Below are positions 8,963-16,982 of a stretch of 64,000 nucleotides of DNA, piece by piece. Both the position numbers and the translations under genes were made by a program. The stretch spans positions 1-64,000 of the forward strand of contig JAFDHD010000008.1 of the NCBI GenBank assembly GCA_019308995.1. The letters run 5' to 3'. This DNA is from Deltaproteobacteria bacterium (GTDB lineage: Bacteria > Desulfobacterota > Desulfarculia > Adiutricales > JAFDHD01). Within the stretch, counting starts at the first letter, position 1, and every line of letters starts with the position of its first letter. Under the pieces are notes generated by a model, which was given only the letters and a program-made list of their open reading frames with translations, had not been told where the DNA came from and made no database searches.

Positions 8963-9820
8963 ATGGCTGAAATATCGAAGCAGTTGAAAATCCCTCAGCC
9001 TGATCCGAACTTTTTTATTTTGAGGGATCACAAGAAAAATTTGGATAGATTTGAAAAGATGTCGGAAAAGCATCCGGTAAATATACTTACAACCGGGAAC
9101 CAAGGATGCGGCAAATCATCGCTTGTGAGGCAATTTGCCTATATCTATCAGAGGCCCCTGGTTACCTTTCAAATTGGGCTTCTGCTTGAGTCCGGCCAGC
9201 TCTTTGGTCAGCAAAGACTGAAAGGGGGCGAGACTTATTACCAGGAATTTTTATTTCCCAAAGCCATCCAGACGCCGGGTTGCATCATCCATCTGGAAGA
9301 GATAAACCGGTCAGAGAGCCCTTATGCCTTAAACGAACTTTTTTCCGTTCTGTCTGAAGATCGAAGCATCTGGATAGATGAACTGGGTTTTGTGGAGGTG
9401 GCCCCACGCGTCATCTTTTTCGCCACGATGAATGAGGGTGACGACTTCACAGGGACCGAGGAACTGGATGCGGCCTTAAAGGACAGGTTTTATCACATTC
9501 ATCTCGAATACCTTCCCCCTGATGTGGAGAAGGAGGTTTTGGTCCGAAAAATCGGCTTGGATGAATCAAAGGCCGACCGCATTCTAAGAGTAGTAAATAG
9601 CATCAGAAACAATGATGAGCATGGGATGAGCATCTCGATAAGACACAGCTTGATGATCGCAGAGCTTGTCTCCCTGGGGGCGTCTTTAAAAGAAGCGATG
9701 ATTTACAGTCTTCATTTATCAAAGGATACTCTGGAATCAACGCTCCTGGCCGTGCATGTCGAAACTCAAGAATTTGAGGGAAAAGAGGATGAGTATATCC
9801 TGTTTCTCCCGCAAGGGTGA
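8963..9820 (+). CDS. MoxR-family AAA+ ATPase
   Basis: 285 residues. Walker A is GNQGCGKS (about 45-52), and the Walker B region reads IHLEEINRSE (about 109-118). Sensor 1 lies in VIFFATMNEGDDFTG, and the arginine finger is in LDAALKDRFYHI. This is the pattern of the MoxR/CbbQ/NorQ/CobS group, which work with a VWA-domain partner as metal-insertion or protein-activating chaperones. The partner is the next gene, 27 bp downstream. A ribosome binding site (gagg) precedes the ATG. No obvious client enzyme is adjacent, so the target is unknown. It is divergent from the PAS/GAF kinase. Confidence 0.9.
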   Translation: MAEISKQLKIPQPDPNFFILRDHKKNLDRFEKMSEKHPVNILTTGNQGCGKSSLVRQFAYIYQRPLVTFQIGLLLESGQLFGQQRLKGGETYYQEFLFPKAIQTPGCIIHLEEINRSESPYALNELFSVLSEDRSIWIDELGFVEVAPRVIFFATMNEGDDFTGTEELDAALKDRFYHIHLEYLPPDVEKEVLVRKIGLDESKADRILRVVNSIRNNDEHGMSISIRHSLMIAELVSLGASLKEAMIYSLHLSKDTLESTLLAVHVETQEFEGKEDEYILFLPQG

Positions 9821-9847
9821 CCGGCATGGACGGCCTATTATAAAGCG

Positions 9848-11548
9848 ATGAAAGCTTATTCGAAATACTGGCGAAAAAATCGCTCTGAGCATGAAGCAGC
9901 TGAGCTTGCCTTGAGTTTGAGGGCTTTACGCAAGGTGGCGGGCCATATTGGACAAAATACTAAACCGATTTTTTGGAAAGGGATGGTCGAAGCCGGTGAG
10001 AACGCTCTTCTTCTGGATGCGGAGGATATTAAAAACCTGCACCCCATTCCTCACCATAGGTTTGACATCCTGGTGGGCAAGGTTGTGCTGGAAGAACTGT
10101 CCACGACCGAATGGACTGACGCAGTAACAGAAAAGGTGTTTGAACAAAATCCTGATCTCGTTGAATCCGTGAAACCCTACCTGGCAAGTATCATAGATGC
10201 TGCGGAGGATATCTATATCCATGAACTGGTCAGGCCGCATGTTTGGTCCTTCTATTTATCAAAATACTGGCAGATTGAACTTCTGACGGAAAAGAGGAAT
10301 TCGACCCCACTGCCAAGTCCGTCGAACCTCGCCAGCATCTGGAGGAGAAAGGTCATTGTCGGCGAGCAGACTGAGCACTTACCTTACTATTTTCAGGACC
10401 TTTTGAATATTTTGATCAGTTATACGACCGCTATCAAGGCGGTTATCTCTCTTCCCTCTTCAGTAAAAAGGAGGGACAGGAGAGTGGACCTCTATCTGAG
10501 AATGTGGTCTGAGGTTTTTCAAATCCTCTCCCAATGGGAAGAAAACCCGCTTAACCCTGATGCAACTGATTGGTTCGATGAGGCGCGCTCCAGGATCGAG
10601 AAGTTCGATGTCAGAAGCATGGGAAGGAATGAGCAAGAAGAAAGACAAAAGGATAAGCAAGAAACTGATGGACTCGAGGAGGATCTTGCTGCAAAGGTGA
10701 GCCGGCTTATGGAAGGGAAAGGATTCGACCAGACCCAGGGTCTAGCCGTTGCCATGGAGAGTCCTGCGGCATCTTCCATGGGAACCGTGTTCACGCGCAG
10801 TGAGATCAGAACGAATATCAAGCCTGATGAAAGGATCGTAAGACACCTTAAAAGAATTTTCAAGAAGCAGAAGGCCCTCATAAGAAGGTCAAAAAAAAAG
10901 TATATCAGAAGGAGACTGCCAGCAGGCAAGTTGGACGCTCGCCGCCTTTACAGGGTGCCGTTTGACGAAAAGGTGTTTAAGAACAAAGAAATCCCCCGTT
11001 CCGACCCCATGTGGCAAATTTGTATCGTGACCGATGCCTCGGCCTCCATGGCTGGTAGGGGGCAGAGCCAAGTACCCTGGGAAATCGCAGAAAGGACCTT
11101 TGTTTCCCTGGCAGCCGCCGCCAGAGGATTTAAGAATCATCTGGATATATACGCTTACAATGAAGAGAAAAAAATATGTCAATTAATTCAACTCTATCGC
11201 GGCGGAGAAATCTATTCAGTGGCTCCTGCCGGCCGGACACCTTCTGGAGAGGCCATTATGGCTGCCGCCATGAGGCTCAAGAAAAAATATCAAAAGAGCA
11301 TCATCATTCACATCACCGACGGGGCAACCAACTGCGGGTTGCCTCTCAGCGAGGCGGCCAGATACTGCCTAGACAACAAGATTGAAGTGTTTACCATTGG
11401 CTGTGGTTGCAGTAGACAGACAAAGGATTATTTAAGGCAATCTTTTCCAACCAGCCGTCTCTATTTTATGAAAGATATAAATTTGTTGGCCGAGGGCCTG
11501 GAGCAGTTATTCAAGAAGAAGATCTTCAACCAGACTTATAATAATTAG
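9848..11548 (+). CDS. VWA-domain protein, partner of MoxR ATPase (CbbO/CobT-like)
   Basis: 566 residues. The N-terminal 250 residues are helical and without a recognised motif. Residues about 255-290 are highly charged (Glu, Lys, Gln), and about 335-360 are very basic. The C-terminal von Willebrand A domain (about 388-560) has a complete MIDAS: D396-x-S398-x-S400 in TDASASM, the Thr in AGRTPSGEA, and the Asp in HITDGATNCG. The architecture of long N-terminal region, charged linker and C-terminal VWA is that of CbbO, NorD and CobT, which pair with MoxR ATPases to activate metalloenzymes. It lies 27 bp after the ATPase gene. No signal peptide, so it is cytoplasmic. Confidence 0.88.
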   Translation: MKAYSKYWRKNRSEHEAAELALSLRALRKVAGHIGQNTKPIFWKGMVEAGENALLLDAEDIKNLHPIPHHRFDILVGKVVLEELSTTEWTDAVTEKVFEQNPDLVESVKPYLASIIDAAEDIYIHELVRPHVWSFYLSKYWQIELLTEKRNSTPLPSPSNLASIWRRKVIVGEQTEHLPYYFQDLLNILISYTTAIKAVISLPSSVKRRDRRVDLYLRMWSEVFQILSQWEENPLNPDATDWFDEARSRIEKFDVRSMGRNEQEERQKDKQETDGLEEDLAAKVSRLMEGKGFDQTQGLAVAMESPAASSMGTVFTRSEIRTNIKPDERIVRHLKRIFKKQKALIRRSKKKYIRRRLPAGKLDARRLYRVPFDEKVFKNKEIPRSDPMWQICIVTDASASMAGRGQSQVPWEIAERTFVSLAAAARGFKNHLDIYAYNEEKKICQLIQLYRGGEIYSVAPAGRTPSGEAIMAAAMRLKKKYQKSIIIHITDGATNCGLPLSEAARYCLDNKIEVFTIGCGCSRQTKDYLRQSFPTSRLYFMKDINLLAEGLEQLFKKKIFNQTYNN

Positions 11549-11594
11549 TTTATTTATATAATCGAGGCTGAAGATCGCGGAGGGAAGTTTAGAC

Positions 11595-11626
11595 TTGACA
11601 ATCATGCAACTTAGTTGCATGATTGT
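11595..11626 (+). promoter_or_regulatory. promoter covered by a perfect 29-bp palindrome (probable Zur/Fur-family operator)
   Basis: A -35 box TTGACA (11595-11600) is followed, 17 bases later, by a -10-like CATGAT (11618-11623). A perfect inverted repeat at 11598-11626, two 13-base arms (acaatcatgcaac and its complement) around TTA, covers the spacer and the -10. It lies about 40 bp upstream of a zinc-type ABC operon that ends in a Fur-family repressor gene. The simple reading is an operator for that repressor. Confidence 0.8.
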
Positions 11627-11666
11627 TTTTAGTTGTATTTATATTTACATTTATAAAGAAAAAAAC

Positions 11667-12518
11667 ATGAAACGGCTCATCACGTCCGGGATATCATTGG
11701 CCTTTCTGCTTTGCGCTGGATATGCCCATGCGGATTCGATGAAGGTTTTCGTGAGCATCGTGCCTCAGAAGTATTTTGTACAAAAAATTGGTGGGGACCT
11801 GGTTGATGTTGCCGTTATGGTTGAACCCGGCGCCAGTCCGGCCACGTATGAACCCAAACCAGCCCAGATGGCCGCCCTGTCCAAGGCCAGGGTTTATTTT
11901 GCCATCGGGGCGCCTTTTGAGAAGGTCTGGCTGGAAAAGATTGCCGCGATCAATCCCAGGATGCAGGTCGTGCATACGGAAGAAGGGATAAAGAAACGCA
12001 CCATGAAAGGCCATGGTCATTCTCGTGGCGGCATTAAAGATCCCCATGTCTGGCTTTCGCCCCCGGCGGTCAGAATTCTAGCTGGCAATATCTTTAAAGC
12101 CCTGTATGCCCTTGATCCGGTCAACGCCATGGTCTACGAGGCCAACTTCCATAAATTCATCGCAGAAATTGAAGAAATTCATACCGAACTGAAATCCATA
12201 CTTAACGGGCATGTAGGCATGCAATTCATGGTTTTTCATCCGGCCTGGGGATACTTTGCTGACGCTTACGGACTGAAACAGCTCCCCATCGAGATAGAAG
12301 GCAAAGAACCAAAACCCGCTCAGCTGATGGCATTGATCGAACACGCCAGAAAACGCGGCGTCAGGATCATCTTTGTGCAGCCTCATTTTTCCATTAAAAG
12401 CGCTGAAATCATTGCCAGGGAGATCGGCGGGCAGGTGGTTTTCGCCGATCCTTTGGCAGAAAATTGGGCGGATAATTTACGGAAGCAGGCCAAAAAAATC
12501 AGAACCGCTCTGAAATAG
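11667..12518 (+). CDS. znuA: metal ABC transporter substrate-binding protein (ZnuA-like)
   Basis: About 283 residues from the ATG at 11667; upstream in-frame codons lie within the operator/promoter and cannot be coding. A Sec signal peptide is clear (residues 1-21, basic start, hydrophobic core, cleavage near AHA-DS). Cluster A-I family features are DPHVWLSPP with a metal-ligand His, FHPAWGYF with another, and FADPLAENW near the end. A short His-containing loop (GHGHSRGG) is typical of zinc-specific members. The usual first ligand, in G-x-x-P-H-x-Y, is replaced (GASPATYEPKP), so the site may use another residue. First gene of a four-gene uptake operon. Confidence 0.9.
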   Translation: MKRLITSGISLAFLLCAGYAHADSMKVFVSIVPQKYFVQKIGGDLVDVAVMVEPGASPATYEPKPAQMAALSKARVYFAIGAPFEKVWLEKIAAINPRMQVVHTEEGIKKRTMKGHGHSRGGIKDPHVWLSPPAVRILAGNIFKALYALDPVNAMVYEANFHKFIAEIEEIHTELKSILNGHVGMQFMVFHPAWGYFADAYGLKQLPIEIEGKEPKPAQLMALIEHARKRGVRIIFVQPHFSIKSAEIIAREIGGQVVFADPLAENWADNLRKQAKKIRTALK

Positions 12519-12520
12519 GG

Positions 12521-13288
12521 ATGAAAATGGATACCCCGATTATAGAAGTCAATAATGTCTGGTTTTCTTACAATGGAGCGCCGGTTCTTAAAGACGTTCA
12601 TCTCCGGGTTCACCGGGAGGATTTTTTAGCCATTATTGGGCCGAACGGCGGCGGCAAGACCACCTTGGTCAAGCTAATGCTCGGCCTGCTGGAACCTGAT
12701 CAGGGGACCATCCGGGTGTTAGACGTTTCTCCCAGGGAAGTCTCCCCCCGAACCGGGTACATGCCTCAGGACATTGGTATCAACCAGAGTATTCCGATGA
12801 CCGTAATGCAGGTCGTTCTCATGGGTACAATGCGGGGCGGCGGCGGCTGGCGCCGGTTTTCCAAGGCCGATCTCAGGGCCGCTCAGGAAACCCTTGAACA
12901 TATTGATATGTGGGAACACCGCAAACAGCGCATCGGTGAGCTGTCCGGCGGGCAAAGACAGCGGGTGCTGCTGGCCAGAGCCATGGTCGGTCAGCCGGAA
13001 CTGCTTTTTTTGGACGAACCGACGGCCAGTATAGATACGAAAGGGCAGACGGATTTTTATGAGTTTCTGAAAGAACTCAACAAGACGACCACTATCGTGG
13101 TGGTCAGTCACGATTTCATGGTGCTTTCAAGCTATATCAAATCCATAGCCTGTGTTAATGAAAAGCTTTTCTTTCATGATCGCCCGGAACTCACCAAGGA
13201 TATGCTGGAAATGGCTTACCACTGCCCGGTGGAGTTGATAGCCCACGGTATGCCTCATCGCGTTTTGCATATCCATGAGGACGAATGA
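12521..13288 (+). CDS. znuC: metal ABC transporter ATP-binding protein (ZnuC-like)
   Basis: 255 residues. Walker A GPNGGGKT, the ABC signature LSGGQRQR and Walker B LLFLDEPTAS are all present, and the switch His is in VVVSHDF. The sequence has the layout of manganese/zinc-type ATPases that energise ZnuB permeases. It begins 2 bp after the binding-protein stop; an alternative ATG at 12527 has a slightly better upstream purine stretch. A long His and Glu-containing tail (about 225-255) follows the core. Works with the next gene as the importer motor in the inner membrane. Confidence 0.93.
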   Translation: MKMDTPIIEVNNVWFSYNGAPVLKDVHLRVHREDFLAIIGPNGGGKTTLVKLMLGLLEPDQGTIRVLDVSPREVSPRTGYMPQDIGINQSIPMTVMQVVLMGTMRGGGGWRRFSKADLRAAQETLEHIDMWEHRKQRIGELSGGQRQRVLLARAMVGQPELLFLDEPTASIDTKGQTDFYEFLKELNKTTTIVVVSHDFMVLSSYIKSIACVNEKLFFHDRPELTKDMLEMAYHCPVELIAHGMPHRVLHIHEDE

Positions 13289-13289
13289 C

Positions 13290-14150
13290 ATGCTGGAAGC
13301 CTTAAGTTTTGAATTCATGCGAAACGCCCTGTTGGCTGGTCTGCTGGCCGGTATTACCTGCGGGATCATCGGTACATTCGTCGTTGTCAACCGCATTGTT
13401 TTTATCTCCGGCGGCATCGCCCATGCGGCCTACGGCGGGGTCGGTCTGGCTTTTTTCTTAGGATTGTCCCCGCTGGTGGGCATCCTGGGGTTTTCTCTTT
13501 TTGTCTCGTTCCTCATGGCCATGATCAGCCTGAAGACAAGACACCGGGCAGACACGGTTATCGGCGTCCTCTGGGCGGTCGGCATGGGCCTGGGCGTGAT
13601 CTTGATTGATCTGACACCGGGATACAATGTGGACCTGATGAGTTACCTCTTTGGCAGTATTCTGACCGTTCCCGCTTCTGATCTCTGGATAATGCTGGTC
13701 ATAAATATCCTGATCATCCTGATCGTGGGATACTTCTATCATGATCTGGTAGCCATGTCCTACGACGAGGAATTCGCCCAGGTTCGAGGCGTTCCGGTCA
13801 GAGTGCTCTATTTCATGCTCATGGCCATGATCGCTCTTTCCGTGGTCATGATTGTTCAGGTCGTTGGGCTGATTCTAGTCATCGCCCTTTTGACCATCCC
13901 GCCTTATATTGCGGAAAAGTTTTCCGGATCAATGCTTCAAATGATGATTTATTCCATCCTCCTTAACCTGATTTTTTCCTCGACCGGACTCTGGCTCTCC
14001 TTTACCTTCAACCTGACCTCTGGGGCCTCAATCATCATGGTCGCGGCCGCGTGCTTCTTTTTCGTTTTGTTTTTGAGCCGTTTTTGGCCCAAGACAACCA
14101 AATGGAATTCTGAAACTAAAGCCGAATACTTGACTAAAAATCTTTCATGA
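13290..14150 (+). CDS. znuB: metal ABC transporter permease (ZnuB-like)
   Basis: 286 residues from the ATG at 13290, which has gagg eight bases upstream; an earlier in-frame ATG (13275) overlaps znuC and lacks a ribosome binding site. Seven to eight hydrophobic spans. The motif GGIAHAAYGGVGLAFFLG near the N-terminus and the segment ALLTIPPYIAEKF are characteristic of the ABC-3 permease family for zinc, manganese and iron. The region DEEFAQVRGVPV corresponds to the cytoplasmic coupling helix that contacts the ATPase. It is translationally close-coupled to znuC (1 bp gap) and to the Fur-family gene downstream (22 bp gap). Confidence 0.92.
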   Translation: MLEALSFEFMRNALLAGLLAGITCGIIGTFVVVNRIVFISGGIAHAAYGGVGLAFFLGLSPLVGILGFSLFVSFLMAMISLKTRHRADTVIGVLWAVGMGLGVILIDLTPGYNVDLMSYLFGSILTVPASDLWIMLVINILIILIVGYFYHDLVAMSYDEEFAQVRGVPVRVLYFMLMAMIALSVVMIVQVVGLILVIALLTIPPYIAEKFSGSMLQMMIYSILLNLIFSSTGLWLSFTFNLTSGASIIMVAAACFFFVLFLSRFWPKTTKWNSETKAEYLTKNLS

Positions 14151-14172: not shown

Positions 14173-14607
14173 ATGAACGTCAGCGTTGATTTCGCAGAGT
14201 TGCTTGATATTTGCGGTATACCTGCCACGCCGCATCGTTTGGCGGTTCTTAAGGTAATTTCTGAAAGCCCGTCTCCGGTGCGGGCCCAGGATATCCTGGA
14301 AAAGCTTCATAAAACCAAAAACATCAACAAGGTCACTGTTTATCGTATCCTGGATTTGTTTGTGGAGAAGCATCTTGTGGAGCGTATCAGCTCCGGAGAC
14401 CGATCATTTCGATATGGGCTGGCCACACAGGTCCACGGCCGGCCTCACGCCCATTTCTACTGCACAACCTGCGGCACCATGGAGTGCTTGAGTCCGGAAG
14501 ATTTAAAGATAGACACCAGGCGGCTAAACCGTGCCTTCCCAGGGGCGATTAAAAAATTCGAAATCCGCCTGGACGGGACCTGCAGTAACTGCCTTAAGAG
14601 CTATTAA
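14173..14607 (+). CDS. zur: Fur-family transcriptional regulator, probably Zur
   Basis: About 144 residues from the ATG at 14173, preceded by ggagaagg. The N-terminal winged helix includes the recognition region around KVTVYRILDLFVEKHL. The dimerisation half has the HAHFYC metal-site segment, a structural zinc pair CTTC and a second pair CSNC at the C-terminus, as in Fur/Zur/PerR. Being last in the znuABC-like operon, whose promoter sits in a perfect palindrome, it probably represses its own operon when zinc is plentiful. The metal is inferred from the neighbours, not from specificity residues. The terminal region abuts a decayed gene on the other strand. Confidence 0.9.
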   Translation: MNVSVDFAELLDICGIPATPHRLAVLKVISESPSPVRAQDILEKLHKTKNINKVTVYRILDLFVEKHLVERISSGDRSFRYGLATQVHGRPHAHFYCTTCGTMECLSPEDLKIDTRRLNRAFPGAIKKFEIRLDGTCSNCLKSY

Positions 14608-14611
14608 AAAA

Positions 14612-15074
<463 letters not shown>

Positions 15075-15403: not shown

Positions 15404-16792
15404 ATGGCCGTAAATTCTGAAAAAATGGGTGCAACGGGATTGGATGCGGATGAGCTGCGTCAAAAGGCTCTCCTTTATCATATTCCAGCCGTTACTCCCA
15501 AAGAGGACAGGGAAAAACAAGGCGCATGGATCATAACCAAAGGAGAAGGCGCAAAGATTTATGACATCAACGGCCGCGAGTATCTGGACGCCGTGGGCGG
15601 CGGGACCCTGGCCGTGGGACTGGGTTATGGCAGCGAAGAAATGGCCAAGGCCATCTATGAGCAGGCCCGTCAGATGCATTATACCGCGCCTTATCTCGGG
15701 GTGACGCCGTCAACCATCCTGCTGGCGGAAAAACTGGCTGAAATAACCCCGGGCAGCCTGTCAGCGACCTGGTTCACCAGCGGCGGGTCCGAGGCCGTGG
15801 AATCAGCTGTCAAGCTGGCCAAGCAGTATCATTTTTTTACGAAATCCAGGGAACGATACAAAGTCATTTCACGTAATTACGCGTATCATGGGACCACGGC
15901 CGGCGCTTTAAGCCTGACCGGACCCTGCCAGTCCCATGAATTTTTAAGGTTCCTGGGTGAACCTGCCTTGATGCCCGGCGTCTCTCATATCTGCGCTCCT
16001 TACTGCTACCGCTGTGAACTCGGACTCGAATATCCAGGTTGTGACATCGCCTGCGCTAAGGAGCTTGAAGAGGAAATCGAGAAACAAGGCCCAGAGACAG
16101 TGAGCGCCTTTATCGGTGAGCCGGTTATCGGAGCGGGCGGCTGCATTCCGCCGGTGCCTGAATACTGGCCCATGATTCGCTCCATCTGCGATAAATACGG
16201 GGTGGTCATGATTGCAGACGAGGTCATTAACGGCTTTGGCCGCACGGGCAAATGGTTTGCCTGCGAACATTGGGGTATTGAGCCTGACATCATGACCATG
16301 GCCAAGAACATCAGCGGCTGCTATATCCCCCTGGGCGCAACCATCATTAAGGCTGAGATGGTCGAAAAAATACCTCTTTTCATGCATGTGTATACCTTTA
16401 GCGGACATGCCGTGGCCTGTGCTGCTGGGCTGAAAGCCATTGAGATCATGGAAAGGGAGAAAATGATAGACCATGTGGCTGAGGTCGGGGCCTATATGCT
16501 TGATGGACTCAAGACCTTATATGATCATCCTACCGTGGGGGACGTCAGAGGTCTGGGTCTTATTGCCGGAGTCGAACTGGTCAAGGACCGGAAAACCAAG
16601 GAGATTTTTAACGCCCGCGAAGCGGTGTCGGATAAGGTGGCTAACCGGGCTCTGGATTATGGTGTTTTTATTCGAGGTTCAGGGAACAGTGTTATCGAGA
16701 TTGCCCCAAATTATAACTTTTCCAGAAAGAATGTTGACACGCTGTTAGATGTGCTTGACAGAAGCTTGACGGATATTGAGAAGGAGCTCTAG
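15404..16792 (+). CDS. class III aminotransferase (PLP-dependent)
   Basis: 462 residues, full length for the family. Features are the fold-I phosphate-binding TSGGSEAVESAVKLA, the aromatic YAYHGTT segment stacking on PLP, the acidic IADEVINGFGRTGKW motif (Asp pairs with the pyridine nitrogen) and the Schiff-base Lys in TMAKNISGCYIPLGA. The family moves an omega-amino group (beta-alanine, 4-aminobutyrate, taurine, diamines or similar) to an oxoacid; the substrate here is not clear. A cysteine-containing insert (CAPYCYRCELG.. CDIAC, about 191-208) is unusual and could bind a metal or form disulfides. A strong ribosome binding site (aggagg) precedes the ATG. Monocistronic by appearance. Confidence 0.9.
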   Translation: MAVNSEKMGATGLDADELRQKALLYHIPAVTPKEDREKQGAWIITKGEGAKIYDINGREYLDAVGGGTLAVGLGYGSEEMAKAIYEQARQMHYTAPYLGVTPSTILLAEKLAEITPGSLSATWFTSGGSEAVESAVKLAKQYHFFTKSRERYKVISRNYAYHGTTAGALSLTGPCQSHEFLRFLGEPALMPGVSHICAPYCYRCELGLEYPGCDIACAKELEEEIEKQGPETVSAFIGEPVIGAGGCIPPVPEYWPMIRSICDKYGVVMIADEVINGFGRTGKWFACEHWGIEPDIMTMAKNISGCYIPLGATIIKAEMVEKIPLFMHVYTFSGHAVACAAGLKAIEIMEREKMIDHVAEVGAYMLDGLKTLYDHPTVGDVRGLGLIAGVELVKDRKTKEIFNAREAVSDKVANRALDYGVFIRGSGNSVIEIAPNYNFSRKNVDTLLDVLDRSLTDIEKEL

Positions 16793-16841
16793 CCTGATGA
16801 ACCATACATGGCCTTGTTATTTGAGAATGGAAAATTGAAGC

Positions 16842-16982
16842 TCCCTGCTGCAAGCAGCAGGGAATCTTCCAAATGTAAGGTAAGTTGGGCCATTTTAATT
16901 TCGCTCGCATTCCCCGCAGCAAGCTGCGGGGAATGCGCTCGCAGGCATATAGATACCCCCGGGCTTGCCCGGGGGTATCTAT
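16842..16982. repeat. cluster of three perfect palindromes with two-base loops (REP-like)
   Basis: Three consecutive inverted repeats. 16842-16863 has 10-bp arms with loop aa. 16906-16937 has 15-bp arms with loop aa. 16949-16982 has 16-bp arms with loop tt. All share a gc-aa-gc or gc-tt-gc centre and GC-rich arms flanked by AT-rich sequence, as in REP/BIME-type elements. No T run follows closely, so they are not simple terminators, although they could block transcripts from either side. Confidence 0.85.

Follow-up and report, generated by a model that had tools for sequence, protein, structure and literature searches.

The conserved core of a perfect palindrome at the head of a znuA-znuC-znuB-zur operon in a deltaproteobacterial genome is very probably the operator (Zur box) for the Fur-family regulator encoded by the last gene, which would make this operon self-regulated. 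We hold zinc to be the regulated metal with somewhat less confidence, given that this assignment derives from the family of the transporter. From sequence comparisons we infer binding, repression and autoregulation at the predicted operator as follows. When zinc is plentiful, a dimeric, zinc-loaded form of the regulator would bind the inner 17 bp of the palindrome, ATGCAAC TTA GTTGCAT. These nucleotides fill the spacer between the -35 and -10 elements and contribute half of the -10 itself (its first three bases); the bound protein would thus block RNA polymerase. When zinc levels fall, the protein would release the DNA, and both importer and repressor would be made.

A palindrome upstream of a zinc-uptake operon

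The + strand at positions 11598-11626 of the window (the whole stretch of 64,000 nucleotides that was analyzed) reads ACAATCATGCAAC-TTA-GTTGCATGATTGT. Its arms are fully complementary, as had been claimed in a sequence-only reading of this DNA, which described a perfect 29-bp palindrome with two 13-base arms around TTA. The outer bases of this TTA pair as well, such that the palindrome can equally be written as 14-1-14. The longer span given in that reading (11595-11626) is composed of the palindrome and the start of the -35 hexamer TTGACA. Perfect inverted repeats with arms of at least 13 bases (loop of at most 8) occur in 0 of 60 dinucleotide-preserving shuffles of the window. The window itself carries three with arms of at least 14, the other two being located at 16906-16982. 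Three consecutive hairpins lie at 16840-16982, after an aminotransferase-like gene whose stop codon is near 16792, and two of these (15-2-15 and 16-2-16) are longer perfect inverted repeats than the palindrome examined here.

The operon ends with its own Fur-family gene, as originally claimed: a gene with a FUR domain above the Pfam cut-off (56.7 versus 23.1 bits; E 3.5e-15) stands last, after znuA, znuC and znuB, and is one of four FUR-domain matches in the genome. Downstream on the - strand, a short open reading frame (14793-15044) resembles by eye an internal piece of the AAA domain of a sigma-54 activator, including GAFTGA, and is perhaps a gene remnant.

Table 1. Features of the operator region and operon (positions in the window)
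Feature	Position	Strand	Basis
Perfect palindrome ACAATCATGCAAC TTA GTTGCATGATTGT, 13-3-13 or 14-1-14	11598..11626	.	Sequence and shuffles
Conserved operator core ATGCAAC TTA GTTGCAT, predicted Zur box	11604..11620	.	Published consensus and 56/67 orthologous operons
-35 hexamer TTGACA	11595..11600	+	Promoter scan; 9 bases before core, register common to 10/57 sites
-10 hexamer CATGAT, spacer 17; first three bases are right arm of core	11618..11623	+	Promoter scan and site alignment
znuA, zinc-binding periplasmic protein of ABC importer	11667..12518	+	Pfam PF01297, E 5e-68
znuC, ABC ATPase	12521..13288	+	Pfam PF00005; best NCBIfam match AztA, below cut-off
znuB, ABC-3 permease (later start possible, ATG at 13290)	13275..14150	+	Pfam PF00950, E 3e-76
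zur, Fur-family regulator, putatively of zur_D type	14173..14607	+	Pfam PF01475; conservation in 88 rows

The inner 17 base pairs are conserved among regulator orthologues

We searched the proteins of 84,980 species genomes with an alignment of the window regulator and five relatives, the latter being seeds from genomes chosen by motif. This search confirmed 271 relatives, and the best 80 of the 271 were kept; these 80 loci were thus picked by protein similarity alone, blind to the motif. Usable upstream regions, defined as 100 or more bases ahead of the operon's first gene, were available for 67 of the 80, and the other 13 were dropped at contig ends.

The core with two or fewer mismatches is present in 56 of the 67 orthologous upstream regions, where shuffles predict 0.18. 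The best match per region has no mismatch in 5 cases, one in 29, two in 22, three in 2, four in 1, five in 6 and six in 2, whereas the 0.18 regions expected from shuffling all carry two mismatches and none carries fewer. Gene-internal control segments yielded the core in 1 of 67 (at two mismatches), and a reversed pattern was found in 0 of 67, with no match below 4 mismatches. The 56 sites share ancestry and are not 56 independent inventions. Among the 11 regions that lack the core at this threshold, three (L052, L062 and L110) have it elsewhere in the locus, and in the DNA examined for four (L038, L041, L075 and L107), zur is not preceded by znu genes.

When these 56 sites are aligned with that of the window, ten bases of ATGCAA/TTGCAT are almost unchanged and carry approximately 1.5 to 2 bits each, while the flanks are scrambled and carry almost none. 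The next base toward the center is C or T on one side and G, T or A on the other. Outside the 17 bp, no conserved base is found in the 57 sites except for promoter signals. The arms are not extended by even one base in 35 of the 57 sites, and extensions of at least six occur only in the window (six), L088 (9) and L093 (6). Complementarity at positions 1, 2 and 4 outside the core (22, 23 and 20 of 57 sites, versus 14.5, 16.4 and 15.1 expected) is too weak to call. By these alignments, conservation of the predicted operator is confined to the inner 17 bp (ATGCAA-N5-TTGCAT), and the 29-bp length is particular to the window's site. The 29-bp operator originally proposed is supported as an operator, but the outer six bases of each arm are not shared.

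The box occupies one of two promoter registers

The only promoter-like match within positions 11400-11800, upstream of znuA-znuC-znuB-zur, is TTGACA-17-CATGAT, whose score (10 of 12) is on its own not above chance (shuffle mean 1.3). As the sequence-only reading had noted, the palindrome encloses both the -10 and the spacer of this promoter. A hexamer resembling TTGACA (one mismatch or fewer) precedes the core in the scanned stretch of 36 of the 57 sites. In 10 sites, including the window, this hexamer begins 9 bases ahead of the core; in 22 the distance is 16 or 17 bases, and in 4 it lies elsewhere. In the nearer register the right arm of the operator forms the start of the -10 (CATAAT, CATGAT or CATACT), and in the farther one the -10 is the center of the operator (TATAGT, TATATT or CATAGT). 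The box therefore lies in two fixed registers, always on the -10 or between the -35 and the -10. In both, a repressor on the box would occlude the -10, and this position suggests repression by exclusion of polymerase.

Comparison with known Zur boxes

In their Table 5, Rodionov and co-workers (2004; PMC545781) give ATGCAACnnnGTTGCAT as the 17-bp consensus of predicted ZUR sites, with one site each in Desulfovibrio vulgaris and D. desulfuricans, located before znuABC-zur_D operons. The core upstream of the operon in the window is an exact instance of this consensus. The sequence-only reading had concretely predicted a Zur site for this group; that prediction is supported but is not new, having appeared in this 2004 table. 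Its assignment as a Zur operator over a zinc-uptake promoter is well supported as a prediction, both by the orthologous operons and by the identical published motif, and sequence identity likewise makes the site a well supported member of the known, predicted zur_D-type Zur box. The tabulated Desulfovibrio system shares the core, the half-site spacing, the transporter-first and regulator-last gene order, and a Fur-family regulator. The window comes from another lineage of the phylum and has longer perfect outer arms, and the published consensus, drawn from two species with a single site apiece, is here relaxed to ATGCAA-N5-TTGCAT over 57 sites.

The E. coli Zur/znuABC system (PDB 4mtd; PMC6103462), as described there, likewise involves a Fur-family fold (judged by sequence; profile E 9e-14), and has in common with the window a box overlapping the promoter and four structural cysteines. 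However, its box has another sequence, and the position of its Cys88 is not a cysteine in the window regulator, which has one at 105 instead. The Bacillus-type Zur box, TAAATCGTAATnATTACGATTTA, predicted also for Geobacter sulfurreducens in PMC545781, is similarly a palindromic Fur-family box before znu genes, but bears no resemblance to the window core. Our search of mostly non-subscription literature returned no experimental test of the box.

General knowledge of zinc regulation is unchanged by these observations. What had been a prediction from two Desulfovibrio genomes is now a motif backed by 56 of 67 operons, with the operator trimmed to its core and its placement on the promoter defined. 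The site also offers a single-copy target with an adjoining regulator gene for a test of zinc sensing.

The regulator and its metal

The window regulator carries the CxxC...CxxC structural zinc site (Cys97, Cys100, Cys137 and Cys140) expected of the Fur superfamily. These four cysteines, along with His92, His94 and Cys105, are invariant in all 88 aligned regulators (the window's, those of the 80 loci, and 7 more). The Cys105 position is occupied by Glu and Asp in two other Fur-family proteins of the window's genome included in the alignment, and by Ala and Glu in two Fur-family proteins of another clade. The sensory cysteine of E. coli Zur is Cys88, and Zur sensory sites are described as N2OS (PMC6103462); in the stretch of the window regulator aligned to that cysteine (PDB profile alignment, position read by eye) there is no conserved cysteine. 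Conservation therefore leads us to guess that the sensed zinc is likely bound by a ligand set different from that of E. coli Zur.

In profile searches, the protein scores below the cut-off of every NCBIfam equivalog, with its top score going to a Fur model rather than to Zur, and reaches 44.9 bits against the 167-bit cut-off of the E. coli Zur equivalog PRK11639. The best PDB match of its profile is a Fur, and E. coli Zur is fourth. Might the box then be the operator of a manganese or iron regulator, considering that this ABC family also moves manganese? The leading NCBIfam models would fit such a reading, being Fur in the case of the regulator and MntC/AztC in that of ZnuA, although all of them score below cut-off. 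However, the zinc models AztA and AztB lead for the ATPase and permease, znuA is the sole ZnuA-family gene in the genome, and the clade-invariant Cys105 beside His92 and His94 suggests that sulphur takes part in the metal site, as it does in known Zurs. We consequently judge a manganese or iron regulator to be improbable, and favor zinc.

Could the palindrome be a transcription terminator?

The full palindrome was also flagged as terminator-like (0.3 expected), having a stem of 14 followed by a T-rich tail, but only 5 G-C pairs. Its RNA fold is predicted at -20.4 kcal/mol (z -6.0), a run of T residues follows, and it lies 50 bases past the stop codon of a vWA gene (11548). Conceivably, it could act chiefly as the rho-independent terminator of that gene, with an incidental resemblance to an operator, and indeed the outer arms and T run are parts that an operator can do without. 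This is very hard to reconcile with a core kept in 56 of 67 orthologous operons, with TTTT occurring within 14 bases after the core in just 9 of the 57 sites (window included), with arms that are unextended in 35 of 57, and with the few G-C pairs of the stem, and we give this explanation very little credence. The conserved role is not termination.

A second role in this genome is possible, if doubtful: the inner 17 bp would be the operator, and the whole 29-bp hairpin with its T run would also stop read-through from the vWA gene. The stem, tail and fold would serve this arrangement equally, and the 3 of 57 sites with arms extended by at least six bases (window, L088 and L093) exceed the expectation from flank composition. 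However, the hairpin extension is not conserved, and the -10 match puts the start of transcription after the hairpin, which would then exist only in read-through RNA. If the dual role were real, the importer would be expressed solely from the zinc-controlled promoter.

Gain or loss of the operon and its operator

Of 40 genomes in the class, three contain a protein that matches the regulator strongly (E of 5e-37 or better): the window's own, G395 and G408. The latter two carry a site with one mismatch before transporter genes. In 13 examined class members that lack such a match, the fetched loci of 15 ZnuA-family genes contain no site at two or fewer mismatches. Among these genomes, the site accompanies the transporter only in those possessing the window-type regulator.

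A MoxR-like AAA and vWA gene pair precedes the operon (8963-11548), and its counterpart (L156) in G405, a genome of the same genus, permits a syntenic comparison. There, an AAA gene with 85% identity and a vWA gene with 54-73% identity, the latter broken by a frame change, are followed by another gene, not znu. The vWA protein has no Pfam family at E 0.001. The znuABC genes of G405 are elsewhere, 43-48% identical and without the site. Because G405 lacks both operon and operator at the syntenic place, the two were either gained in the window's lineage or lost in G405 together. The G+C content of the operon (0.506) equals that of the window (0.499), and hence there is no compositional sign of recent gain. 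In the tree of 88 regulators no starred branch fixes the position of the window's protein, and therefore neither a donor nor vertical descent can be read from it.

We tentatively propose, with slightly less than even confidence, that the znuACB-zur genes and their operator are a self-regulated cassette gained as a unit, and that this regulator clade senses zinc via Cys105, elsewhere than in E. coli Zur, and recognizes ATGCAA-N5-TTGCAT, which is positioned on the promoter in either of two fixed registers. If so, regulator, importer and box would travel together, and zinc control would work on arrival.

The box elsewhere in the genome and phylum

A scan of the 3.78-Mb genome (228 contigs) for the palindrome near other zinc genes, which the sequence-only reading had suggested, revealed a singleton that marks only the znu operon. 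A 23-mer of the palindrome occurs once even allowing three mismatches, and the 17-bp core has a single exact match. ATGCAA-N5-TTGCAT with one mismatch is found at seven other places, versus one for the reversed control. The idea that the regulon extends past the znu operon here was rejected: of the five one-mismatch places that were read, L003, L111 and L112 are inside genes, and L113 and L114 are between open reading frames that have no neighboring zinc gene. Two further places with two mismatches (L004 and L005) are inside genes.

Across the phylum, the exact core is present in 11 of 395 genomes and the reversed control in 0 of 395. By our own estimate, chance would yield a few occurrences of 14 fixed bases, so this count alone proves little and it is the context that matters. 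In eight of the ten other genomes, the core precedes an ABC operon of the zinc type that is accompanied by a Fur-family gene. Five of the ten (G355, G213, G391, G352 and G276) have the window-type regulator, and the regulators of the five loci with exact boxes are 38-49% identical in the alignment with that of the window. In three (G111, G045 and G322), the Fur-family protein next to the zinc-type operon belongs to another clade. At L026, L027 and L028, an exact box lies before zinc-type ABC operons led by the other-clade regulator. The association of one box with two Fur clades means that it is either older than the window's clade or arose twice.

The remaining two genomes (G199 and G071) have the exact core with no recognizable zinc genes beside it. 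In G071, the box (L030, 115-131) precedes a gene for a putative membrane protein of 197 amino acids that matches nothing in Pfam or NCBIfam; efflux-like genes follow downstream. Two sites with two mismatches in L031 are behind, not before, an SO_0444-type permease gene and were not counted. The two ArsP_1 permease genes of the window's genome have no site in the fetched loci. In a Desulfocapsa metagenome-assembled genome (L093, 803-2671), a box with one mismatch precedes genes for an ArsP_1 permease and a TIGR03943 protein, adjoining znuABC-zur, and on the basis of this arrangement we consider these genes a candidate addition to the zinc regulon.
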